Positions 21,562 to 33,552 of a DNA stretch of 64,000 bases are shown piece by piece (position 1 is the first letter of the stretch; each line of letters starts with the position of its first letter). The notes under the pieces were generated by a model. It saw only the letters and a list, made by a program, of their open reading frames with translations, searched no databases and was not told where the DNA came from. Position numbers and translations under genes: made by a program. This DNA comes from Streptomyces sp. NBC_01439 (lineage in GTDB: Bacteria; Actinomycetota; Actinomycetes; Streptomycetales; Streptomycetaceae), in contig NZ_CP109487.1 in assembly GCF_036227605.1 (NCBI RefSeq), positions 7,253,501-7,317,500 on the forward strand, written 5' to 3'.

Positions 21562-22311
21562 TCAGTGCGCGTCGACCGTCACGGTGAAGGAGAACCGGTC
21601 GCCCCGGTAGCGGATCCGGGCCACGTCCACCACCCGGCCGTCCTCGTCGTAGGTGACGCCCGTGTAGTGCAGGATCGGGCTCAGCAGCGGCACCTGGAGC
21701 AGCTCGGCCGTCTCCGGGTCGGCCAGCCGGGCCTCCACCGTGTCCGTGATCCGGCTGATCCGTACCCCCACGATGTCCCGCAGGACCTTCGTCATCGGCC
21801 AGCGTTCGAGATCGGCGAGATCCACCGTCTCGGCGAATTCCGGGAGGACGGCGTTCTCGGCCCAGTTGGTCGGCTCACCGCTCTCCCGGTCGTGGCGCAG
21901 GCGGCGGTAGGTGATCACCTCGGCCGTGTCCGGGAAGTGCTCCAGCAGCTCCCCGGACACGGCCGTGCGGCCGTGCCCGAGGATCGTCGTGCGGTCGCCC
22001 GACTGCTGGGCCACGATCGCGTCGACCGAGCCCAGGAGCCGGACCGGGGTGCTGCGCAGCGCGCCCGGCTCGATGAAGGTGCCGCGCCGCCGGTGCCGGC
22101 TGATCAGCCCCTCGCCCTCCAGCTCCTTGAGCGCCTGCCGCATGGTCAGCACGCTCACCCCGTAGTGCCCGGCCAGCTGCTCCTCGGTGGGCAGGCGCAG
22201 CGAGGCGTCCGGGGTGCGCCCCAGTATCGAGGCGCGCAGTGACTGTGACACCTGGTACCAGAGCGGCAGCTTCCGGTTCAGTACCAGAGAGTCGGGGGCG
22301 AAGGCGGTCAC
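21562..22311 (-). CDS. GntR/HutC family regulator with UTRA domain
   Basis: 249 aa from GTG 22311 with GGAG 8 bp upstream. The N-terminal wHTH (LPTEEQLAGHYGVSVLTMRQALKELEGEGLISRHRRRGTFI, residues about 41-80) is followed by a UTRA ligand domain (ILGHGRTAVSGELLEHF to YRGDRFSFTVTVD). HutC-type proteins sense small metabolites. It lies 78 bp downstream of hmgA on the same strand, so a tyrosine/homogentisate catabolism sensor is likely but not proven. Confidence 0.9.
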   Translation of the reverse strand: MTAFAPDSLVLNRKLPLWYQVSQSLRASILGRTPDASLRLPTEEQLAGHYGVSVLTMRQALKELEGEGLISRHRRRGTFIEPGALRSTPVRLLGSVDAIVAQQSGDRTTILGHGRTAVSGELLEHFPDTAEVITYRRLRHDRESGEPTNWAENAVLPEFAETVDLADLERWPMTKVLRDIVGVRISRITDTVEARLADPETAELLQVPLLSPILHYTGVTYDEDGRVVDVARIRYRGDRFSFTVTVDAH

Positions 22312-22347
22312 GGGTGGTTCTCCGAAGGCTGGACAGGGGGGAGGTGC

Positions 22348-22388
22348 GGCGCATGCAGGGTACGGCGCATGCAGCGTATGCAGTGCAG
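22348..22388. repeat. GCATGCAG direct repeats between hmgA and gntR
   Basis: GGCGCATGCAG occurs at 22348-22358 and 22364-22374, with a degenerate third copy CGTATGCAGTGCAG up to 22388. Each copy holds the palindrome GCATGC. Sited just before the GntR gene, it is a candidate autoregulatory operator. Confidence 0.5.
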
Positions 22389-22389
22389 G

Positions 22390-23703
22390 TCAGGCGCGGA
22401 AGTGGCGCTGCAGACCCTGCCACACGTCGTCGTAGCCGCGCTGGAGGTGATCGGCGCCGGCCGCCTGCGCGGTGGCGGTGATCGGCCAGCGGGTCTCGAA
22501 CATGAAGGCCAGGCCGTCGTCGATCTTCTGCGGCTTCAGCTCGGCCGCACTCGCCCGCTCGAAGGTCTCGTGGTCGGGTCCGTGCGCGGACATCATGTTG
22601 TGGAGCGAGCCGCCGCCGGGGACGAAGCCTTCGGCCTTGGCGTCGTAGGCCCCCTCGATGAGGCCCATGTACTCGCTCATCACGTTGCGGTGGAAGTAGG
22701 GCGGACGGAAGGTGTCCTCGCCGACCAGCCAGCGCGGGGCGAAGACCACGAAGTCCACACCCGCCAGTCCCGGGGTGTCGGAGGGCGAGGTCAGGACGGT
22801 GAAGATCGACGGATCGGGGTGGTCGTAGCTGATCGAGCCCAGGACGTTGAAGCGGCGCATGTCGTACACGTACGGGACGTGGCTGCCGTGCCAGGCGACC
22901 ACGTCGAGGGGGGAGTGGTCGTAGGTGGCGGACCAGAGGTTGCCGCAGAACTTGTTGATCACCTCGGTCGGACGCTCGATGTCCTCGTACGCGGCGACGG
23001 GGGCCTGGAAGTCCCGTGCGGCGGCGAGGCCGTTGGCGCCGATCGGGCCCAGGTTCGGCAGCTCGAAGGGCTGGCCGTAGTTCTCGCAGATGTAGCCGCG
23101 GGCGTCGGCGTCGAGCAGCTCGACGCGGAAGCGGACGCCGCGGGGGATCAGGGCCATGTCGCCCGGGCGGGCGGCGAGCAGGCCCAACTCGGTGCGCAGG
23201 AGCAGCCCGCCGCGCTCGGGGACGATGAGCAGTTCGCCGTCGGAGTCGCTGAACACCCGGTCGGTCATGTCGGCGTTGGCGGCGTAGAGGTGGATGGCCA
23301 TGCCGGCGCGCTGGGCGGCGTCGCCGTTGCCGCCGAGGGTCCACAGGCCGGAGAGGAAGTCGGTGCCGGGGGCCGGCTCGGGCAGCGGGTTCCAGCGGAG
23401 CCGGTTCGGGTCCGCCACGGACTCGGTGAAGGGCGCCGAACGCAGGGCCCCGTTGTCGATCCGGGTGAAGGGCGGGTGCGCGGCCGAGGGGCGGATCCGG
23501 TAGAGCCAGGAGCGGCGGTTGTGGGTGCGGGGCTCGGTGAAGGCGCTGCCGCTGAGCTGTTCGGCGTAGAGGCCGAGGGGGGCGCGCTGGGGCGAGTTCC
23601 GGCCGATCGGCAGTGCACCGGGGACGGCCTCCGAGCTGTGCTCGTTGCCGAAGCCGGTGAGGTACTCCAGTGCCTCTGCCGTCTTCCTGGCTTGCTCGCT
23701 CAT
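22390..23703 (-). CDS. hmgA: Homogentisate 1,2-dioxygenase
   Basis: 437 aa, the normal length. It opens with [20 protein letters not shown], diagnostic of HmgA. The C-terminal cupin region holds the iron-binding part ([51 protein letters not shown]). The enzyme opens the homogentisate ring to maleylacetoacetate in tyrosine/phenylalanine breakdown. Maleylacetoacetate isomerase and fumarylacetoacetase genes are not in the window. A long inverted repeat at 23728-23755 lies just upstream, and the UTRA regulator lies downstream. Confidence 0.97.
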
Positions 23704-23727
23704 GTGCTGCTCTCCCGCTCCGTCGAA

Positions 23728-23755
23728 GGAATCCTATGGCTGACAGTAGGATTCC
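23728..23755. promoter_or_regulatory. Perfect 9-bp inverted repeat upstream of hmgA
   Basis: GGAATCCTA at 23728-23736 and TAGGATTCC at 23747-23755, spacer TGGCTGACAG. The arms are perfect and lie 25-52 bp before the hmgA start codon, where a promoter is expected. It is likely an operator for the homogentisate pathway regulator. Confidence 0.7.
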
Positions 23756-23905
23756 GCGGCCCGCACGTCAACGGCGGATCCGTGCCCGGCGCAGAGATCG
23801 GCGGGAAAGGGTGGGAATGGGGGAGGGGCTGCGGGTGAGGGTGGGGGTGGGGGGTGCGGATGGGGGGCGGGGCGGGGCGGGTGCGGTGATCGGGTGAGGC
23901 GACCG

Positions 23906-24061
23906 GCACCGCCGGTCGGCACCGCCGGTCGGCACCGCCGGTCGGCACCGGCGGTCGGCACCGCCGGTCGGCACCGGCGGTCGGCACCGCCGGTCGGCAC
24001 CGGCGGTCGGCACCGCCGGTCGGCACCGGCGGTCGAAATCGGCGGTCGAAATCGGCGGACG
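23906..24061. repeat. 13-bp tandem repeat array, 12 units
   Basis: Ten units of GCACCGSCGGTCG (S alternating C or G from unit 4 onward) run from 23906 to 24035. Two diverged units beginning AAATC reach 24061. The unit is not a multiple of three and contains the near-palindromes ACCGCCGGT and ACCGGCGGT. The array sits between hmgA and the beta-helix gene, inside their divergent promoter region. Confidence 0.9.
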
Positions 24062-24121
24062 GGAACACGGATTCGGTCGAAGGGGATCCCAAAAGATGAA
24101 CATTGCTCTACTCTCACGCGC

Positions 24122-26269
24122 ATGTCGTGGACCCGCAGGTTCCCTGCCGTGCCGGCGGCGCTCCTCGCCGCCCTTCTCGCCCTCCTGTCCCTCCTCGTCG
24201 CGGCACCCGCCGCCAGCGCACACGAGGAGCGCCCGGTCACCCTCCCGGACGGCTCCGGATCGGTACCCGAGTACCGCGCCGCTGAGCCCGACCTGATCGT
24301 CTGCAAAACCGACCGGCCCGCCTTCGAGCGCCGGATATCCGCCTTCCCCGACGAGCTCAAGCAGCGCAACCTCGCCCTGTACGAGCGGTGCGAGAAGAGC
24401 GGCTACCGACACCTGCAGGAGGCCGTCGACGCCGTCGACCGGCCCGGCATGAACATCGCGATCCTCCCCGGCCTGTACGAGGAGGAGCCCTCGCTCCCCG
24501 CACCGACGGGGGAGTGCGCCGCGCTCAAGGCCCCCCAGTCCTCGCTCGGGTACCAGATCCTGTCCTACGAGCAGCAGGTGCAGTGCCGTCACAACCAGAA
24601 CCTCGTCGCCATCCTCGGCAAGACGAGCCTGCAGATCGAGGGCACGGGGGCGTCACGGCTCGACGTGGTCGTCGACGCCAAGTACCAGAAGCTGAACGCC
24701 ATTCGTGCGGACAAGTCCAACGGGATCTACTTCCGCAACTTCACCGCCCAGCGCACCACCTTCAACTCGCTCTACGTGCTCGCGGGCGACGGCTTCGTCA
24801 TCGACGACGTGCTGACCCGCTGGAACGACGAGTACGGTTTCCTGACCTTCGCCAGCGACCACGGGCTCTACAAGAACTGCGAGTCGTACGGGAACGGCGA
24901 CTCCGGCATCTACCCGGGCAGCGCCTCGAACATCAACGACGGCCGCGGCTACGAGGTCCCCCGGTACTCCATCGAGATCACCGGCTGCCGCAGCCACCAC
25001 AACATGGTCGGCTACTCCGGCACCGCGGGCGACTCGGTGTGGGTGCACGACAACGAGTTCGACCAGAACATGGGCGGCGCCTCGATGGACAGCGCCTTTC
25101 CCGGCCACCCCGGACTCCCGCAGAACCACGCCAAGTTCGAGCGGAACCTGATCCACGACAACAACCAGGACTACTACGGGTACGTCGCCGACGGCACCTG
25201 CGCCAAACCGCCGATCGAGCGCGGCTACGAGCGCGGCGTCGTCTGCCCTCAGATCTCCATGCCGCCGGGCACCGGCATCATCACCGCGGGCGGCAACTGG
25301 AACCTCTACGAGAACAACTGGGTGTACGGGCACCAGCGTGCAGGCTTCTTCCTCAGCGCGGTCCCCGCCTTCATCCGCGGCGAGGAGGCGTGGTCGAAGC
25401 AGACCGACACCTCCCACCACAACCGGTACGCCGGGAACGTCATGGGCAAGGACAAGTCCGGCGCCGCGCGCCCCAACGGCATGGACGTGTGGTGGGACGG
25501 CCAGGGGCGCGCCAACTGCTGGCAGGACGGACCCGACGGCTCCACCCCCGGCACGGTCCCGCAGTGCGGTGACCGCCGGGGCGAGGTCTCGGGGGCGTCC
25601 GCCCGCCTGGTCGGCGAGCCGGTCAAGCTGGCCCAACTCCTCGTTTGCGCGGACTACAACGTCCAGGCGCGCAAACTCCCGTCCGGCTGCGACTGGTACG
25701 GCGCGCGCGGACTCGAGCGGGTGGAGACCCAGCTCGCGCTGGCCGTGGCCGCGGTGCTGCTGCTCGTCGGCGGCGTCCTGTGGTGGCGCCGCCTGCGCGG
25801 CTCCCGCCTGGGCACGGCCGCCACGCTGGCCGGGCTGGCGGGTCTGGTCCTGGACGTGGCGGGCTCCACCATGTCCCTGACCGCCACCTTCGTCCCGGCG
25901 CTCGCCCTCCTCCTGCTCGGCCTGTGGTGGACGGGCGCCGGCCTGGTCCTGCGCCCCACCCGCCCCTGGCTGGCCCGCCTGACCCTGCTGCTGGCCGGGC
26001 TCACCCTGCTGGACGCCTTCGACAAGGCCGTCCTGATGATCCCCTGGACCCCCCTGAGCCCCGCCTGGGTACGGGCCCTGGTCGCCGTGATCTGGGTCCT
26101 GTGGGCGGTGGTGGCCTCGGCCCGCCCGGGCACCCCGGCCCGCCCGTCCGGCCCGGGCGGCGACCCCGCGGGCGACCGCGCCCCGGTCCCCGCCGGCCCC
26201 GCCCCGGCGCTGAGGGCGGCCGCCACCGAGCCCCCGGCGGCCCCGACGACCCCGGACCCCGCGCCGTGA
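24122..26269 (+). CDS. Secreted beta-helix protein with C-terminal membrane domain
   Basis: 715 aa. The signal peptide ends after ASA33. Residues about 180-450 are right-handed parallel beta-helix (Beta_helix/NosD-like) repeats, e.g. NGIYFRNFTAQRTTFNSLYV, HGLYKNCESYGNGDSGIYPG and HDNEFDQNMGGASMDS. A Cys-containing exterior stretch leads to about five membrane helices (from about residue 540), then a Pro/Ala-rich tail. No Shine-Dalgarno site precedes ATG 24122; a TANNNT -10-like box (TACTCT, 24109-24114) is placed 7 bp before the ATG, suggesting a leaderless mRNA. The known families are polysaccharide lyases/epimerases and NosD-type copper-enzyme maturation factors. It heads the cassette with the cupredoxin lipoprotein and polytopic membrane protein. 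Confidence 0.85.
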   Translation: MSWTRRFPAVPAALLAALLALLSLLVAAPAASAHEERPVTLPDGSGSVPEYRAAEPDLIVCKTDRPAFERRISAFPDELKQRNLALYERCEKSGYRHLQEAVDAVDRPGMNIAILPGLYEEEPSLPAPTGECAALKAPQSSLGYQILSYEQQVQCRHNQNLVAILGKTSLQIEGTGASRLDVVVDAKYQKLNAIRADKSNGIYFRNFTAQRTTFNSLYVLAGDGFVIDDVLTRWNDEYGFLTFASDHGLYKNCESYGNGDSGIYPGSASNINDGRGYEVPRYSIEITGCRSHHNMVGYSGTAGDSVWVHDNEFDQNMGGASMDSAFPGHPGLPQNHAKFERNLIHDNNQDYYGYVADGTCAKPPIERGYERGVVCPQISMPPGTGIITAGGNWNLYENNWVYGHQRAGFFLSAVPAFIRGEEAWSKQTDTSHHNRYAGNVMGKDKSGAARPNGMDVWWDGQGRANCWQDGPDGSTPGTVPQCGDRRGEVSGASARLVGEPVKLAQLLVCADYNVQARKLPSGCDWYGARGLERVETQLALAVAAVLLLVGGVLWWRRLRGSRLGTAATLAGLAGLVLDVAGSTMSLTATFVPALALLLLGLWWTGAGLVLRPTRPWLARLTLLLAGLTLLDAFDKAVLMIPWTPLSPAWVRALVAVIWVLWAVVASARPGTPARPSGPGGDPAGDRAPVPAGPAPALRAAATEPPAAPTTPDPAP

Positions 26270-26306
26270 CCCCCGCCCAGGCCGCCCCGACCACAGGAGG
26301 CCAGCC

Positions 26307-27218
26307 GTGACCGACCGGCCCGACGACGACCACCGGTGCGACGCCTGCGGCACGCCGCCCCGCGCGGCCCGCAGGCTCGCCCGAACCGCCCGAACCGCGG
26401 CCATGCTCGCCCTCGCCCTGCTCCTTGCGGGCGGCGCGGCGACGGGCTGCGGCGGGCGGGCCACCACCCACCACAAACCCGGCACCAGCCACGAGCAGGC
26501 ATCCGGAGGCGTGGGCACCCTGCTGACGACCACCGACGCCACCGGTCACCGGCTCCGCGAGGTCCCGGCCCAGGGCGCGCCGGAGGTCCAGCTGACCGTC
26601 CGCCCGGACTCGGAGGATGGCTGGAACCTCCAACTGGCAGTGAAGAAATACCGCTTCACCCCCGACAGCACCGGCGGCGCCGCCCTCCCGGGCGCGGGCC
26701 ACGCCCACCTGGAGCTCGACGGGCGCAAGCTGGCCCGGCTGTACGGCCCCTGGTTCCACCTGCCCGCGGCGCAGGTCCCTGAGGGCACCCACACCCTGAC
26801 CGTCCGCCTCTACGCGGACGACCACACCGCCTGGGCGGTCTCGGGCAAGCCGGTCGAGGGCACGGCCCAGCTGACCGCCACCGCCCCGGGCCAGCCGGGC
26901 GGACACAGCCACGGGGACACTCCGCCGCCGGGCCAGACCCCGGCGCCGGAGCAGGCCGACCGCACGGTCACCATCACGGTCCGGGACGGCAAGGTCAGCC
27001 CAGCTCCCGCCCGCACTGAGCTACGGCGCGGAGAGCGCGTGGCCCTGCGCGTCACGAGCGACCGCGCGGACACCCTGCACGTCCACGGCTACGACAAGGA
27101 ACTCGCCCTGCCGGCAGGCCAGGAGGCCACCCTGATCCTGACGGCCGACCGCACGGGCCTCTTCGAGGTCGAGACCCACGAGTCCAGCCTCGTCCTCACC
27201 CAACTCCTCGTCCGATGA
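26307..27218 (+). CDS. Putative lipoprotein with cupredoxin-like C-terminal domain
   Basis: 303 aa from GTG 26307 (GGAGG upstream), 37 bp after the beta-helix gene. A hydrophobic segment ends in ATGCGG, a weak lipobox, so it is probably anchored outside the membrane. The middle (residues about 90-190) resembles a domain with GHAHLELDGRKLARLYGPWFHLP. The C-terminal ~90 residues (TVTITVRDGKVSPAPARTELRRGERVALRVTSDRADTLHVHGYDKE) follow the cupredoxin/EfeO-like fold, with a His in LHVHGYD and a final THESS that could bind copper. It is likely a periplasm-side metal or electron carrier working with the neighbours. Confidence 0.8.
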   Translation: MTDRPDDDHRCDACGTPPRAARRLARTARTAAMLALALLLAGGAATGCGGRATTHHKPGTSHEQASGGVGTLLTTTDATGHRLREVPAQGAPEVQLTVRPDSEDGWNLQLAVKKYRFTPDSTGGAALPGAGHAHLELDGRKLARLYGPWFHLPAAQVPEGTHTLTVRLYADDHTAWAVSGKPVEGTAQLTATAPGQPGGHSHGDTPPPGQTPAPEQADRTVTITVRDGKVSPAPARTELRRGERVALRVTSDRADTLHVHGYDKELALPAGQEATLILTADRTGLFEVETHESSLVLTQLLVR

Positions 27219-27514
27219 CCCCACCCCGCCCCGAACCGAGCCCCCAACCCAGCCCCGCACCCCGACCTGAGCTCGGGCCGACGCCTGCGCACCCGGCCCA
27301 GCCGGCACAGGGCCCTGTGCCGGCACCCGGCCCCGTGCGCGCATCGGGCCTCATGTCCGCGCACGGCCCCGGAGTGGTGCCCAGGCCTGCGTGGTTCGGC
27401 GGTCCGTTCGCGTTCCGGCTCGGCGCCCGGTCCCGGCCGTCCGCACCCGGGCCGGAGTCCGGGCGGACGGGCCGTGTCGCCGACGGGACCGCGCTCCGGG
27501 CGGGGAGATGGTGA
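27215..27514 (+). CDS. Possible 99-aa Pro-rich coupling ORF
   Basis: The ATG overlaps the lipoprotein stop (ATGA), and the TGA at 27512-27514 overlaps the next gene's start region. The frame exactly bridges the 290-bp gap and has mostly G/C third positions. The product is Pro/Gly/Arg-rich with no domain (MTPPRPEPSPQPSPAPRPEL, then PAWFGGPFAFRLGARS). It may be a real linker protein, a translational bridge, or chance. Only conservation of the protein in relatives would decide. Confidence 0.35.
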   Translation: MTPPRPEPSPQPSPAPRPELGPTPAHPAQPAQGPVPAPGPVRASGLMSAHGPGVVPRPAWFGGPFAFRLGARSRPSAPGPESGRTGRVADGTALRAGRW

Positions 27515-28872
27515 GCCCGCTCGGGCCGGATCTCGCCCCGGGCGCCACCGAGGGGAGCCACGGCCAGGGCGTGGTCCTTCACCCGGCCGATCCGTTCACC
27601 TCGCTCGCGCACGGGATCGGGTCCCAGCACGATCTGCCGATCTCTCCCTTCTACGCCTTCGCCGGCGCTTTCGCCGCGCTGTTCGTCTCCTTCCTCGCAC
27701 TCGGCCTGCTCTGGTCCACCTCCCGCTTCCGCGGAGCGCGCTCGGGCCTCGCCCTACCCGCCGCCCTCCAGAGGGTGGCGGACGCGCCCGCCGTCCGGAC
27801 CGCCCTGCACGGACTAGGACTCGCCGTCGCGGCGGCCGTCCTGCTCCACCTCCTCCTCGGGCCCGACGATTCCGCGCGCAACCCCGCTCCCGGCGCCGTC
27901 TACGTCCTCCTCTGGGTCGGACTCGTACCCGCCTCCCTCCTCCTCGGCCCCGTCTGGCGCCTGCTCAACCCGCTCCGCACCCTGCACCGCCTGCTCTCCC
28001 GCTTCCTGCCCCGCCGCGGCGCAGGCCGCCCCCTCCCCTCCCGGCTCGGCCAGTGGCCGGCCGCTGCCGGCCTGTTCGGCTTCACCTGGCTCGAACTCGT
28101 CGCTCCTGATCCCGCATCAACCACCACCCTCCTCATCGCCATCACGGCCTACGCCACCGCCCACCTCCTGCTCGCCGCCCGCTTCGGCGAGCGCTGGTTC
28201 GACGAGGGCGATGCCTTCGAGGCGTACTCCGCCCTCTTGGCGCGGCTCGCCCCCCTCGGCCGTCGCAGCGACGGCCGCCTCGTGCTCCGTAACCCCTTCC
28301 ACGGACTCGACGCGACACCCGAGCGGCCCGGACTCGTCGCCACTGTCTGCGTCCTCCTCGGCTCCACCGCCTACGACGGCTTCTCCGACAACCCCTCGTG
28401 GATCAACGCAATACAGACCTCCCCCCTCGGCCGCATCCCCACGGCCACACTCGGACTGCTCGGTTCCATCGCCCTCGTCGCCGGCCTCTACTGCCTTTGC
28501 GCCGCCGCCACCCGCCTCGTCAGCGGCCCGCACCCCGGCCCGCTGACCGCCTTCGCGCACTCACTCGTACCGATCGCGCTCGGCTATCTCATCGCCCACT
28601 ACTTCTCCCTCCTGGTAGTCGAAGGACCACGCACAGTAAGCATGGCACTCGGCACTGACAACGCCCCCGAACCCGTGCCACCCCTGGGCCCGGGCGGCCT
28701 CGCCGCCCTCCAGGTCATCGCCGTCGTCACCGGTCACGTCCTCGGTGTCGTCGCGGCCCACGACCGGTCCGTGCGGCTCTTCCCGCCGGCGAAGGCGGTG
28801 GCCGGACAGCTACCGCTGCTGGTGCTGATGATCACTTACACCGTCGGAGGGCTCAGTCTTCTGCTGAACTGA
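27508..28872 (+). CDS. Polytopic membrane protein of unknown function
   Basis: 454 aa with about ten to twelve hydrophobic helices. Conserved-looking polar spots are PVWRLLNPLRTLHRLL, the GERWFDEGDAFEAYSALLARLAPLGRRSDGRLVLRNPFHG cytoplasmic stretch and PSWINAIQTS. Histidines in GYLIAHYFSLLVVEG and GHVLGVVAAHDR lie near the membrane. GGGGAG abuts ATG 27508; GTG 27511 is equally possible. I recall relatives in actinobacteria being labelled 'fenitrothion hydrolase' by loose similarity; I do not trust this as a function. It follows the cupredoxin lipoprotein and is the likely membrane partner. Confidence 0.8.
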   Translation: MVSPLGPDLAPGATEGSHGQGVVLHPADPFTSLAHGIGSQHDLPISPFYAFAGAFAALFVSFLALGLLWSTSRFRGARSGLALPAALQRVADAPAVRTALHGLGLAVAAAVLLHLLLGPDDSARNPAPGAVYVLLWVGLVPASLLLGPVWRLLNPLRTLHRLLSRFLPRRGAGRPLPSRLGQWPAAAGLFGFTWLELVAPDPASTTTLLIAITAYATAHLLLAARFGERWFDEGDAFEAYSALLARLAPLGRRSDGRLVLRNPFHGLDATPERPGLVATVCVLLGSTAYDGFSDNPSWINAIQTSPLGRIPTATLGLLGSIALVAGLYCLCAAATRLVSGPHPGPLTAFAHSLVPIALGYLIAHYFSLLVVEGPRTVSMALGTDNAPEPVPPLGPGGLAALQVIAVVTGHVLGVVAAHDRSVRLFPPAKAVAGQLPLLVLMITYTVGGLSLLLN

Positions 28873-28904
28873 GACCCCCGAAGAACCGAGAAGCGAGGAG
28901 CGGC

Positions 28905-29528
28905 ATGATGGACCCCGTGCCCCCCGTCCACTCCCTGCGCCGAGCGCCGATCCAGCAGCGCAGCGCCGACCGGCTCGCCCGGATCCTCGACGCCTGCGCC
29001 GAGCTGCTGGACGAGACCGGGTACGAGAACCTCAGCACCCGTGCCGTGGCCCAGCGTGCCGGTGTGCCGATCGGTTCCGTCTACCGCTTCTTCGGGAACA
29101 AGCGGGCCATGGCCATCGCCCTCGCCCACCGCAACCTGGACCGCTACGTCGACGGCATCGCGGACCGGCTCGCCGAACTCCCGGCCACCCACTGGCGGCC
29201 CGTCGTGGACGCGGTGCTGGACGAGTACCTGGCCATGAAGCGCAGCGTCCCCGGCTTCGCGCTCGTCGACTTCGGCGTTCCCGCCCCTCCGGCCGAGGGG
29301 CCGGAGGCGGATCCCAACCACCAGGTCGCCGCCCGGCTGACGGAACTGCTCTCCGCGCATCTCGTCCTGACCCCCGACGCCGCCCTGGAGCGGGCCGTCC
29401 TCGTCGCGGTCGAGGCCACCGACGCGCTGATACAGCTCGCCTTCCGGGCCGACCCGGCCGGGGACCCCGGCATCGTCGCCGAGACCCGCGCGATGATGCA
29501 CGCGTACCTGGCCGGCGTGCTGGACTGA
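28905..29528 (+). CDS. TetR/AcrR family regulator
   Basis: 207 aa, ATG 28905 with AGGAG upstream, 32 bp after the membrane protein gene. The HTH (about residues 15-61) reads RSADRLARILDACAELLDETGYENLSTRAVAQRAGVPIGSVYRFFGNKRAMA. The C-terminal part is a generic TetR ligand domain with QLAFRADPAGDPGIVAETRAMMHAYLAG at its end. The short spacing suggests co-transcription with the envelope cassette, making it a candidate local regulator. No operator was recognised near it. Confidence 0.85.
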   Translation: MMDPVPPVHSLRRAPIQQRSADRLARILDACAELLDETGYENLSTRAVAQRAGVPIGSVYRFFGNKRAMAIALAHRNLDRYVDGIADRLAELPATHWRPVVDAVLDEYLAMKRSVPGFALVDFGVPAPPAEGPEADPNHQVAARLTELLSAHLVLTPDAALERAVLVAVEATDALIQLAFRADPAGDPGIVAETRAMMHAYLAGVLD

Positions 29529-29657
29529 CCCCTTCCGGGTCCGGCGCCGGTCCCGGCTCGCTGCCGCTGCCGCTGCCGGGTCGAGGGTGGTGCGGGTCGA
29601 GGGCGGTGCTGGTCGTCACCCGTACCCACTCGTGCCACACACCCCTCCCGTCCGTGC

Positions 29658-29673
29658 GTACCGGTCGGTATGC
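29658..29673. promoter_or_regulatory. CATACCGACCGGT-type operator before the oxidoreductase
   Basis: GTACCGGTCGGTATGC on the + strand; the reverse strand reads GCATACCGACCGGTAC. Internal inverted repeat TACCG-GT-CGGTA. It shares its 13-bp core with 44976-44995 and nearly with 52157-52176. It lies 57 bp before the oxidoreductase start. Confidence 0.6.
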
Positions 29674-29729
29674 TCGATGTGTTCCGTGTGCCCGTGCCCG
29701 TGCCGCAGACCGCCGCCCCTGGAGGGCCC

Positions 29730-31928
29730 ATGTCACGCACCGCCCTGCGCATCTGCCCCCTGTGCGAAGCCACCTGCGGCCTCACCCTCACCCTCGCGGA
29801 CGGCGCGGTCACCCGAGCCCGCGGTGACCGCGAGGACGTCTTCAGCCGCGGCTACATCTGCCCCAAGGGGGCTGCGTTCGGAGCGCTCGATTCCGACCCC
29901 GACCGGCTGCGGGGCCCCCTCGTCCGCCGCGACGGCCGTTTGCGGGAGGTCACCTGGGAGGAGGCCTTCGAGGCCGTAGCGGCCGCCGTCCCCGCCCTGG
30001 TACGGGAGTACGGGGCCCAGTCGGTCGGGGTCGTCCTCGGCAACCCGAACGTCCACACCATGGCCGGCGCCCTCTATCCGCCCCTGCTGCTCAAGAGCCT
30101 CGGCACCCGCAACCTCTTCACCGCCAGCACCCTCGACCAGATGCCCAAGCACGTGTCCAGCGGGCTGCTCTTCGGCGACCCCTTCGCCATTCCGGTCCCC
30201 GACCTCGACCGGACCGACTTCCTGCTGCTCCTGGGCGCGAACCCGGTCGAGTCCAACGGCTCCCTGTGCACCGCCCCCGACTTCCCGGGCCGACTCAAGG
30301 CCCTGCGCGCCCGCGGCGGCACCCTGGTCGTCGTCGACCCGCGCCGTACGCGCACCGCCGCGCTCGCCGACCGTCACCTCGCGCCGCGCCCCGGCAGTGA
30401 CGCGCTCCTGCTCGCCGCCCTCGCGCACACCCTGATCGAGGAGGAGCTCGCCGACCCCGGAGCGCTGGAAGAACAATGCGACGGCATCGGGGAACTCGGC
30501 GCCGCGCTCGGGAGTTTCACCCCCGAGGCCGTCGCACCCGCATGCGACCTCACCGCTGCCGAGATCCGCACCCTCGCCCGCGAGCTGGCAGCCGCACCCA
30601 CCGCCGCCGTCTACGCCAGGATCGGTAGCTGCACCGTCGAGTTCGGCACGCTGGCGAGCTGGCTGGTCGACGTACTGAACATCCTCACCGGCAACCTCGA
30701 CCGGCCGGGCGGAGCCTTCTTCCCGCTCTCCGCGACGGCCTCCGCGGGCCGCCCCGCGGGCCCGGGCAAGGGGTTCGCCCTCGGCCGCTGGTCGAGTCGG
30801 GTCGCCGGCCACCCCGAGGTCAAGGGCGAGCTGCCGATGGCTGCCCTCGCGGAGGAGATCGAGACCCCGGGTGACGGGCGGATCCGGGTCCTGCTGGCCA
30901 TCGCCGCCAACCCGGTCCTGTCCGCACCCGACGGCGATCGGCTGGACCGGGCGCTGGCCGGGCTGGACTTCATGGTCTCGGTCGACCCCTACCTGAACGA
31001 GACCTCACGCCATGCCCACGTCGTCCTGCCACCGCCGCCGCCCTCACAGAGCGCGCACTTCGACTTCGCGTTCAACGGGTTCGCCGTGCGCAACCAGGCG
31101 CGCTACTCGCCCGCCGCCCTCCCGCTGGCGGACGGACGCATGGACGAGTGTGAGATCCACGCGCGCCTGATCCTCGCGGTTTCCGGCCTGCACGGAACGC
31201 CGCCGGGGGCGGTGGACGAGCGCGTCATTGCCGACAGCCTGGCCCGGGCCGTCAACGATCCCCACTCACCGCTCCACGGCGGCGACCCGCAGGAGTTGGC
31301 CCGCCTACTGACCGGCCGTACCGGCCCCGAGCGACGCCTCGACCTGATGCTGCGCACCGGCCCGTACGACCTGACGCTCGAAGATCTGCGGCAGGCGCCG
31401 CACGGCATCGACCTCGGTCCGCTACGGCCCCGGCTCCAGGGCGTGCTGAAGACCCGCAGCGGCAGGATCGAGTTGCTCCCGGACCCGATCGCGGCCGAGC
31501 TCCCCGGGCTGCGCGCGGCGCTCACCGACCGCCCCGCCGCCCTGGTGCTCGTGGGCCGCCGCCATCTGCGGTCCAACAACAGCTGGTTGCACAACGTTCC
31601 GGCCCTCACCGGAGGTTCCAACCGCTGCACCCTTCAGGTCCATCCGCAGGACGCGGACCGGCTCGGCCTCGTCGACGGAGGGCACGCCAAGATCACCGCC
31701 GACGGTGGGAGCCTGGAGGTGCCCGTCGAGGTCACCGACGCCATCCGCAGCGGTGTGGTGAGCCTTCCGCACGGCTGGGGACACGACCGGGCCGGCGCGC
31801 GGCTATCGGTGGCCGCCGAGGCGCCCGGGGCGAACGTCAACCAGCTGCTCGACGGCACCCGCATGGACCGGCTGTCCGGCACCGCGGTGCTCAACGGCTT
31901 CCCCGTAGAACTCACGCCACTGCCCTGA
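29730..31928 (+). CDS. Molybdopterin-dependent oxidoreductase with N-terminal [4Fe-4S]
   Basis: 732 aa from ATG 29730 (GGAGG upstream). The N-terminal cysteines Cys9, Cys12, Cys16 and Cys44 (C-x2-C-x3-C-x27-C, ending ICPKG) bind a [4Fe-4S] cluster. Then come the MopB core motifs (LLLLGANPVESNGSL, VVVDPRRTRTA, NILTGNLDRPGGAFF) and the C-terminal cofactor domain (RSNNSWLHNVPALTGG, HGWGHDRAGARLSVA). It belongs to the DMSO-reductase superfamily; the substrate is unknown and no iron-sulfur or membrane partner subunit is adjacent, so it resembles the soluble single-subunit formate/nitrate-like type. No Tat signal precedes it, so it is cytoplasmic. Confidence 0.9.
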   Translation: MSRTALRICPLCEATCGLTLTLADGAVTRARGDREDVFSRGYICPKGAAFGALDSDPDRLRGPLVRRDGRLREVTWEEAFEAVAAAVPALVREYGAQSVGVVLGNPNVHTMAGALYPPLLLKSLGTRNLFTASTLDQMPKHVSSGLLFGDPFAIPVPDLDRTDFLLLLGANPVESNGSLCTAPDFPGRLKALRARGGTLVVVDPRRTRTAALADRHLAPRPGSDALLLAALAHTLIEEELADPGALEEQCDGIGELGAALGSFTPEAVAPACDLTAAEIRTLARELAAAPTAAVYARIGSCTVEFGTLASWLVDVLNILTGNLDRPGGAFFPLSATASAGRPAGPGKGFALGRWSSRVAGHPEVKGELPMAALAEEIETPGDGRIRVLLAIAANPVLSAPDGDRLDRALAGLDFMVSVDPYLNETSRHAHVVLPPPPPSQSAHFDFAFNGFAVRNQARYSPAALPLADGRMDECEIHARLILAVSGLHGTPPGAVDERVIADSLARAVNDPHSPLHGGDPQELARLLTGRTGPERRLDLMLRTGPYDLTLEDLRQAPHGIDLGPLRPRLQGVLKTRSGRIELLPDPIAAELPGLRAALTDRPAALVLVGRRHLRSNNSWLHNVPALTGGSNRCTLQVHPQDADRLGLVDGGHAKITADGGSLEVPVEVTDAIRSGVVSLPHGWGHDRAGARLSVAAEAPGANVNQLLDGTRMDRLSGTAVLNGFPVELTPLP

Positions 31929-32001
31929 GCTGGGGTTTTGCTCGTATTGCTCACGCGTGGACGTCTTGTTGACGCGAGGAGGCGGCACCTACCTTCCCCC
32001 C

Positions 32002-33552
32002 ATGCTGACCTTCCTCGGCTTCGCCATGATCGCGACGTTCCTGGTCCTGATCATGATGAAGAAAATGTCGCCCATCGCGGCGCTCGTCCTCATCCCCGCA
32101 CTCTTCTGCGTGTTCGCAGGGAAGGGCACGCACCTCGGCGACTACGTCATCGACGGCGTCGGCAAGCTCGCCCCGACCGCCGCCATGCTGATGTTCGCCA
32201 TCGTCTACTTCGGCGTGATGATCGATGTCGGCCTCTTCGACCCGATCGTCCGCGGCATCCTGCGCTTCTGCAAGGCGGACCCGATGCGGGTGGTGGTCGG
32301 CACCGCCGTCCTCGCCGCGATCGTCTCGCTCGACGGCGACGGCTCGACCACCTTCATGATCACCGTCTCAGCCATGTACCCCCTCTACAAGCGGCTCGGC
32401 CTGAGCCTCGTGGTGATGACGGGCGTCGCGGCCACGGCCAACGGCGTCATGAACACCCTGCCCTGGGGCGGTCCGACCGCGCGCGCCGCCACCGCCCTCA
32501 AGCTCGACGCCGCCGACATCTTCGTCCCGATGATCCCGGCGCTCGCGGTGGGCCTGTTGTTCGTGTTCGTACTGGCGTACGTCCTCGGCGTGAAGGAACG
32601 CCGCCGGGTCGGCACGCTGGTGCTGCCCGGCCAGGCGGGTCCGGAGGCCGCCGCGGCGGAGCTGGTTACGGCCGGCCCAGGCACGGCCGCCGCGGTCGTC
32701 GCGGACCTCGCCGTGACGTCCGCGCCCGTCGAGGGCTCAGCCGGATCCACTGCTTCCGTCGGACGTGTGGCTTCCACCGGGTCCACGGCTTCCACCGGGT
32801 CCACGGCTTCCGCCGGATCCGCGGCCTCCGCCGCTTCCGCCGCTTCCGACGCAGGTGCGGCCGACGCCGCCCCGGTCGGGAACGTTTCGCTCCCCGCGCC
32901 CGAGGACGGTTTCCAGGGGCTGGACCCGGACCGTCCCACTCTGCGGCCCCGTCTCTACTGGTTCAACGCCGGCCTCACCGTGGCCCTCCTCACCGCGATG
33001 ATCATGGAGCTGCTGCCCATCCCGGTGCTGTTCCTGCTCGGCGCCGCCCTCGCCCTCACCGTCAACTTCCCGCACATGCCCGACCAGAAGGCCCGGATCG
33101 CCGCCCACGCCGACAACGTCCTGAACGTCGCCGGCATGGTCTTCGCCGCCGCCGTCTTCACCGGGGTCCTCACCGGCACCGGCATGGTCAAGCACATGGC
33201 CGACTGGCTCGTCGGTGCCATCCCCGAGGGCATGGGCCCGCACATGGCGCTCGTCACCGGCCTGCTCAGCCTGCCGCTCACCTACTTCATGTCCAACGAC
33301 GGCTTCTACTTCGGCGTCCTGCCCGTCCTGGCCGAGGCCGGAGCCGCCCACGGGGTTTCCCCGCTGGAGATCGCCCGCGCCTCCCTCGTCGGCCAGGCCC
33401 TGCACATGTCGAGCCCGCTGGTTCCGGCCGTCTACGTCCTCGTAGGCATGGCCAAGGTCGAGTTCGGTGACCACACCCGGTTCACCGTGAAATGGGCGGC
33501 CCTGACCTCACTCGTGGTCCTCGCGGCAGGGATGCTTTTCGGCATCATTTGA
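32002..33552 (+). CDS. CitMHS family citrate-metal:H+ symporter
   Basis: 516 aa from ATG 32002 (MLTFLGFAMIATFLVLIMMKKMSP, the usual family start); a GTG at 31957 is an alternative. About twelve membrane helices are present with the family motifs SLDGDGSTTFMITVSAMYPLYKRL, GVAATANGVMNTLPWGGPTARAA and FMSNDGFYFGVLPVLAEAG. It imports citrate complexed with a divalent metal, driven by protons. A long Ser/Ala/Thr/Gly linker with an 18-nt repeat (nt about 32740-32860) in the central loop is larger than usual. It stands 73 bp after the oxidoreductase gene. Confidence 0.93.
   Translation: MLTFLGFAMIATFLVLIMMKKMSPIAALVLIPALFCVFAGKGTHLGDYVIDGVGKLAPTAAMLMFAIVYFGVMIDVGLFDPIVRGILRFCKADPMRVVVGTAVLAAIVSLDGDGSTTFMITVSAMYPLYKRLGLSLVVMTGVAATANGVMNTLPWGGPTARAATALKLDAADIFVPMIPALAVGLLFVFVLAYVLGVKERRRVGTLVLPGQAGPEAAAAELVTAGPGTAAAVVADLAVTSAPVEGSAGSTASVGRVASTGSTASTGSTASAGSAASAASAASDAGAADAAPVGNVSLPAPEDGFQGLDPDRPTLRPRLYWFNAGLTVALLTAMIMELLPIPVLFLLGAALALTVNFPHMPDQKARIAAHADNVLNVAGMVFAAAVFTGVLTGTGMVKHMADWLVGAIPEGMGPHMALVTGLLSLPLTYFMSNDGFYFGVLPVLAEAGAAHGVSPLEIARASLVGQALHMSSPLVPAVYVLVGMAKVEFGDHTRFTVKWAALTSLVVLAAGMLFGII

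Follow-up and report, generated by a model that had tools for sequence, protein, structure and literature searches.

The genome of Streptomyces sp. NBC_01439, a single contig of 9.58 Mb, was analysed over a stretch of 64,000 nucleotides (NZ_CP109487.1, positions 7,253,501 to 7,317,500; hereafter the window), in which three consecutive plus-strand genes encode a secreted right-handed beta-helix protein (BH, 24122-26269), a lipoprotein (Lip, 26307-27218) and a polytopic membrane protein (MP, 27508-28872). With a probability of roughly 0.5, we propose that the cassette serves as a module of the envelope, capturing a transition metal (most likely copper) and delivering it to, or through, the cytoplasmic membrane. 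This proposal draws on features that were observed directly, namely the gene order, the domain make-up, the invariant residues, an exchange of partner genes that follows the clades of MP, and the absence of histidines from the N-terminal lipoprotein domain (LipN) where its partners are missing. Genes were called with a script written for this analysis, so that start positions are approximate. The row of three genes, with a gene for a TetR-family regulator 32 bp past MP, had been noted in a preliminary description of this DNA, and is confirmed here.

A Cupredoxin Domain and MP Form the Conserved Core

Lip is a fusion of LipN (residues ~55-190) with a Cys-less cupredoxin domain (CUP, ~210-303). 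In a survey of 150 genomes of the genus, MP was detected in 33 and a Lip match in 87, and Lip or CUP adjoins MP in 30 of the 33 MP-bearing genomes. The three exceptions are G209, in which Lip and MP lie ~900 kb apart, G337, whose MP is at a contig end, and G326, which has a distant MP. Loci fetched from 29 cassette genomes in this genus show all three genes adjacent in 26, the others being cut by contig ends (L233, L235) or split (G209). The preliminary description had held that the three proteins belong together, a view to be given up if the genes lay apart in most relatives, and these counts bear it out. Within the 26, the match to MP in G237 extends over just 113 residues, and MP is in two pieces in G268 and G277. 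BH, cupredoxin and MP occur with LipN absent in G296 and G243. The cassette is also found in Streptosporangium sp. KLBMP 9127 and in Nonomuraea, with the homogentisate dioxygenase gene hmgA, its upstream neighbour in the window, not in the fetched stretch.

Further relatives came from a scan of named genomes, from which the best 80 of 579 were kept as named loci, which weights the sample towards close relatives of the query. Partners were counted by six-frame profile search, with distance limits from MP of 600 bp for CUP, 4 kb for CopC, 4.5 kb for BH and 2 kb for LipN; one locus, L114, has no MP in the gene-call clusters, yet is counted by the six-frame search. CUP was present at 79 of the 80 named loci and LipN at 13, and cupredoxin was the sole partner of MP at 33. 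In a phylum sample of 198 genomes, MP was detected in 32, and CUP adjoins MP at 19 of the 27 MP loci fetched from this sample; the eight without CUP are L075, L083, L084, L088, L103, L104, L108 and L109, with CopC instead in L103 and L104. The conserved core of the system is the CUP domain plus MP.

A gene of the wax-ester synthase/DGAT type, assigned by Pfam for the scanned copies, lies near CUP-MP at 23 of the 80 named loci (L110-L130 and others) in a long conserved gene order. Distant MP paralogues without cupredoxin occur in two genomes of the genus (L049, L053), where visual inspection suggests that the neighbours resemble BlaI and M56 peptidases.

Candidate Ligand Residues of CUP

The C-terminal domain of Lip has a sub-threshold cupredoxin match in the Pfam scan and tested positive for the cupredoxin fold, with VIA structure rows spanning mainly residues 210-303; by sequence, Lip found nothing in PDB at E ≤ 1. 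All 129 CUP copies carry H258, H260 and E289, and 120 carry H291. A Cys after residue 249 occurs in just 3 of the 129 domains, and T290 sits about where the type-1 Cys is expected, in a register set by eye. A blue-copper (type 1) site was accordingly rejected, since the His, Cys, His, Met set is missing and CUP has an invariant HxH...E site instead, which also sets it apart from Cupredoxin_1 (PF13473) proteins and CupA. The cupredoxin domain with His ligands that the preliminary description had recognized therefore keeps its fold and gains invariant candidate ligands, but not the blue-copper ligand set. Among other families compared, PCuAC (PF04314) matched 1 of 50 members, at 0.0059, and this was not the window protein. 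A weak likeness to DUF4399 (PF14347) was seen in L103, where a protein resembling LipN adjoins MP and CopC (2.3e-5, below the cut-off), and in 1 of 50 Lip/CUP proteins, at 0.017.

Sites of His and Glu that are free of Cys and Met suit several divalent metals, which raises the possibility that the module handles zinc, iron or nickel and that copper neighbours are incidental in some clades. A solved Cupredoxin_1 protein, 4hcg, is listed with bound zinc, and a CobW-like GTPase, read from sequence by eye, lies near MP in L083. The recurrent partners of the core are copper proteins, however, and we consider another metal unlikely.

MP Has Invariant Histidines and No Recognizable Family

No match to MP was obtained in Pfam at E ≤ 1, in NCBIfam at E ≤ 0.1 or, by sequence, in PDB at E ≤ 1. 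Numbered from the ATG at 27508, H35, H364, H410 and H418 are present in 67 of 67 aligned sequences; in 27 more divergent MPs, the first three are found in 27 of 27 and H418 in nearly all. Of 79 MPs and 69 CUPs called as genes, the alignments used (A3 and A4) omit 18 and 32, respectively. H35 lies near the N terminus of MP, and H364, H410 and H418 lie inside two predicted long helices.

Membership in the CopD family (PF05425) was rejected, because MP has no profile match to it at E ≤ 1, CopD is missing from the family list obtained with 27 MP members, and the hhalign probability of 0.2-0.5 percent falls under that of an unrelated transporter control (1.0-2.3). A relationship with CtaG was rejected as well, at a profile-profile probability of 0.1 percent. 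MP had no fold match in PDB; its best VIA-align Z, 6.3, was to talin domains and was taken as chance.

The helix histidines suggest a different role, in which MP is a membrane redox protein that carries haem or copper via H364 and H410 and oxidizes or reduces the metal delivered by CUP with no transport, CUP presenting Cu(II) for reduction. Sites for b-type haem or copper have histidines near helix middles, and two invariant histidines of MP are placed comparably in two long helices predicted for it. The weak Foldseek rows for MP include bd and ba3 oxidases, but those rows are insignificant (0 matches at E ≤ 0.001), and MP matches no cytochrome or quinone-binding family, making this role improbable. 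Two UniRef records (P0032 and P0034) carry the name 'Fenitrothion hydrolase' and would make MP an organophosphate-type hydrolase. We regard this as highly implausible, because MP matches no hydrolase family and the name leaves the association with cupredoxin and CopC unexplained; nothing usable was found in the literature under it, the one trace seen being a reference-list entry, in PMC7948229, for a purified Burkholderia enzyme that is not tied to the MP family.

Some distant MPs (L105, L106, L107) contain a Cys-rich insertion resembling an additional site for metal or an iron-sulphur cluster. In G162, a genome from outside the genus, a very distant MP (~27 percent identical) and hmgA are arranged head to head (L108:8097-10750), by coincidence or through an old link. 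A membrane-like protein of ~610 aa is encoded near MP in L073 (7361-9193), L076, L078, L079 and L052, and the scanned L073 copy is without a Pfam match.

Outer Partners Are Exchanged Between MP Clades

Outside the core, MP is accompanied by different proteins in different lineages. CopC, detected with our own profile, is present at 32 of the 80 named loci and BH at 12, with the two together at none, and not one of the 12 BH-type loci has CopC; Pfam confirms CopC in L131, L136, L103 and L074. A tree of 110 MPs groups the BH-type loci in a single clade (support 100; 36 with BH, 4 without) and the CopC-type loci in another (support 100; 32 with CopC, 2 without). The 5 and 3 label changes counted on this tree arise from the six rows without partner, which are contig-cut or split (G209). 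This tree was built rapidly, has SH-aLRT support only and weak deep nodes, and omits L034, L037, L045 and L238, whose best MP piece is shorter than 350 residues.

To evaluate neighbours, we took 50 chosen MP loci without BH-type cassettes and scanned up to two genes upstream and one downstream, giving 142 proteins of 80 to 700 aa. CopC was the commonest Pfam family among them (10 of 142; 11 by our own profile), and SCO1 was found twice. Among 128 farther neighbours at the same loci, CopC was absent from the 25 Pfam families listed, which puts it at 2 or fewer, and numbered 0 by our own profile. Since 7 of the 10 Pfam cases come from one MP clade, they represent about three or four independent cases.

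The BH protein of the window consists of a beta-helix (residues ~35-530) and a C-terminal membrane-like domain (~530-690), and its sole Pfam match at E ≤ 1 is PF13229; against the TIGR03805 beta-helix family it scores 29.5 bits, below the curated cut-off of 141.5. A profile of the C-terminal domain matched 40 loci, every one a cassette BH locus (one of them in the split genome G209), and the domain was found at 0 of 13 BH-only loci. In distant genomes, two weakly similar BH genes adjoin plastocyanin-like proteins (above the Pfam cut-off in L101, just below it in L100), and beta-helix and cupredoxin may therefore have met more than once. In L094 (9092-12307), one protein of 1071 aa joins a BH-type beta-helix to cell-wall binding repeats (CW_binding_2).

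Beta-helix proteins and metal lipoproteins are also paired in NosD/NosL maturation, to which the preliminary description had pointed, and the cassette could on this model mature one unlinked extracytoplasmic copper enzyme, in a NosD/NosL- or Sco/PCuAC-like manner, rather than serve general copper supply. Assembly factors do occur near MP in some distant genomes, with SCO1/SenC in L085 and L088, and Caa3_CtaG adjoining MP in L083. Against this, no recurring copper enzyme gene was noticed beside MP, BH does not match NosD (PF05048) at E ≤ 1, and the cassette proteins have no NosD, NosL or ABC-partner match at E ≤ 1. A nos_propeller search gave no match in the NBC_01439 genome, nor did it in the control genomes. 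The recurrent partner in relatives is CopC, and we doubt that maturation of a single enzyme is the role of the cassette.

Several LipN Histidines Are Absent Where the Partners Are Absent

LipN begins, at the mature N terminus, with a THHKPGTSH motif, followed by a His-bearing beta domain. In 55 fetched loci of the genus, LipN occurs as a lipoprotein of its own, with CUP and MP absent and the BH and CopC profiles without a match in the fetched stretch; hmgA is present in 54 of the 55, and a genome-wide search found MP elsewhere in G326 alone, a distant copy. A further genome with a weak LipN-type match (L239, G309, the 56th) was dropped from the comparison since it gave no profile match. The set with partners comprised 41 loci with 40 distinct sequences, five of the loci lying outside Streptomyces.

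Several histidines, among them the candidate metal ligands H132 and H173, differed sharply between the two groups. H132 is present in 41 of 41 loci with partners and 1 of 55 without, H173 in 41 of 41 versus 0 of 55, H62 in 40 of 41 versus 0 of 55, both H55 and H56 in 39 of 41 versus 1 of 55, and H81 in 37 of 41 versus 0 of 55. W106, D172 and W176 are conserved in all 96. LipN from outside Streptomyces (L135, L145, L156, L168) retains H132 and H173, and the histidines were therefore probably lost together with the partners. On a tree of hmgA with 32 cassette and 54 LipN-only rows, three changes are needed and well-supported branches force one, so that the contrast represents between one and three events rather than 55. 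The two groups of LipN amount to a natural experiment.

Proposed Mechanism and Comparison With Known Systems

In the mechanism that we favour, Cys-less CUP would hold the metal at a His/Glu site formed by H258, H260, E289 and usually H291 and pass it to MP, whose H35, H364, H410 and H418 may form the lining of a membrane path or site. Both LipN and the beta-helix with its membrane anchor would be accessory capture or docking parts, replacing the CopC chaperone of other actinobacteria. From sequence comparison we infer metal binding by these residues, copper as the metal, transport over reduction by MP, and the direction of transfer; the probable identity of the metal as copper rests on the partner proteins. 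Of the earlier suggestions, action of the three proteins outside the cytoplasm is borne out and a metal theme is likely.

The review PMC7558416 covers CopC/CopD (PcoC/PcoD) and YcnJ, a fused protein of Bacillus, and states that further bacterial copper import systems likely exist, uncharacterised. The cassette resembles these systems in combining an extracytoplasmic, putatively metal-binding partner with a polytopic membrane protein, and CopC itself stands beside the core in relatives. In contrast to CopC/CopD, MP is without detectable CopD homology, an additional cupredoxin domain is its fixed partner, and the window cassette has BH and LipN in CopC's place. The NBC_01439 genome has two ordinary CopD genes elsewhere than the cassette. 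Our best reading is that the module works like CopC/CopD, yet is not CopD. In the same genus, the sco operon, as described in PMC3603459, encodes Sco, a PCuAC-like protein and a CopC/CopD-domain protein; there too, extracytoplasmic copper chaperones adjoin a membrane protein, although the protein families differ and Lip is not PCuAC. In line with the earlier view that the set is most likely undescribed, no account of the three genes was found in the open-licence literature, for the most part in title- and abstract-level listings. More tentatively, the cassette could represent a new bacterial class of metal, probably copper, transfer, in which a membrane family with no known relatives is fed by a Cys-less cupredoxin and BH with His-bearing LipN has replaced CopC as the outer capture stage.

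Several observations weigh against a copper module of this kind. MP resembles no known transporter, H291 of CUP is replaced by Glu in 9 of 129 copies, and the counts for CUP and MP favour typical copies, since members of that set served to build both profiles. Neither CopC nor BH is present at 36 of the 80 named loci (a few of them truncated at a contig end), and most of the CopC excess comes from one MP clade. In LipN, H162 runs the other way (31 of 41 with partners, 55 of 55 without), H134 is variable in both groups (28 of 41 versus 22 of 55) and H151 drops merely to 22 of 55 without partners; the contrast between the groups appears to rest on few events, and LipN without partners is still conserved, and therefore has some other role. 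The neighbours in the window (homogentisate dioxygenase, molybdopterin oxidoreductase and a citrate-type transporter) are not copper genes. The regulator is a TetR, not a known copper sensor, and the window lacks a CsoR-like TACCC..GGGTA site; together, these speak against simple copper control. No experiment on any family member was found in the literature. With a widespread core of two parts, a membrane family that had no annotation, candidate ligand residues and the LipN contrast, the question of further copper import systems becomes directly testable in harmless laboratory strains of Streptomyces.

Locus Layout and the Sequence Between Lip and MP

The cassette is flanked by hmgA (22390-23703, minus strand), upstream of BH, and by the TetR-family gene (TetR_C_22; 28905-29528, plus strand). 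This TetR gene is retained with the cassette and likewise adjoins LipN standing alone in other loci. It is followed by a molybdopterin oxidoreductase and a CitMHS transporter (29670-33552), which also hold their position in many LipN-only loci, and the wider locus is therefore older than, or independent of, the cassette. No CopC was found among the scanned window proteins from 21562 to 33552, and a promoter and terminator scan, which is uninformative for Streptomyces, gave nothing. Between hmgA and BH lies a 13-bp tandem repeat, CGGCACCGCCGGT, in 10.2 copies (23904-24035).

The preliminary description had bridged the gap between Lip and MP with an open frame of 99 aa (27215-27514, plus strand), whose ATG overlaps the Lip stop as ATGA. 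Its sequence is of low complexity, our gene caller did not call it, and in 14 of 32 other loci compared (L038, L040, L041, L043, L044, L045, L047, L048, L055, L056, L167, L168, L169 and L187) the frame from the same ATGA or GTGA runs on through MP, for 358 to 478 codons. A small protein was ruled out on these grounds, and the frame is not a gene; most simply, its ATG would be the ancestral MP start, now stranded. The window and the remaining loci have inserted sequence of varying length, in which the frame, where a start codon exists, stops after 2 to 268 codons, and in the window this intervening sequence contains short repeats.

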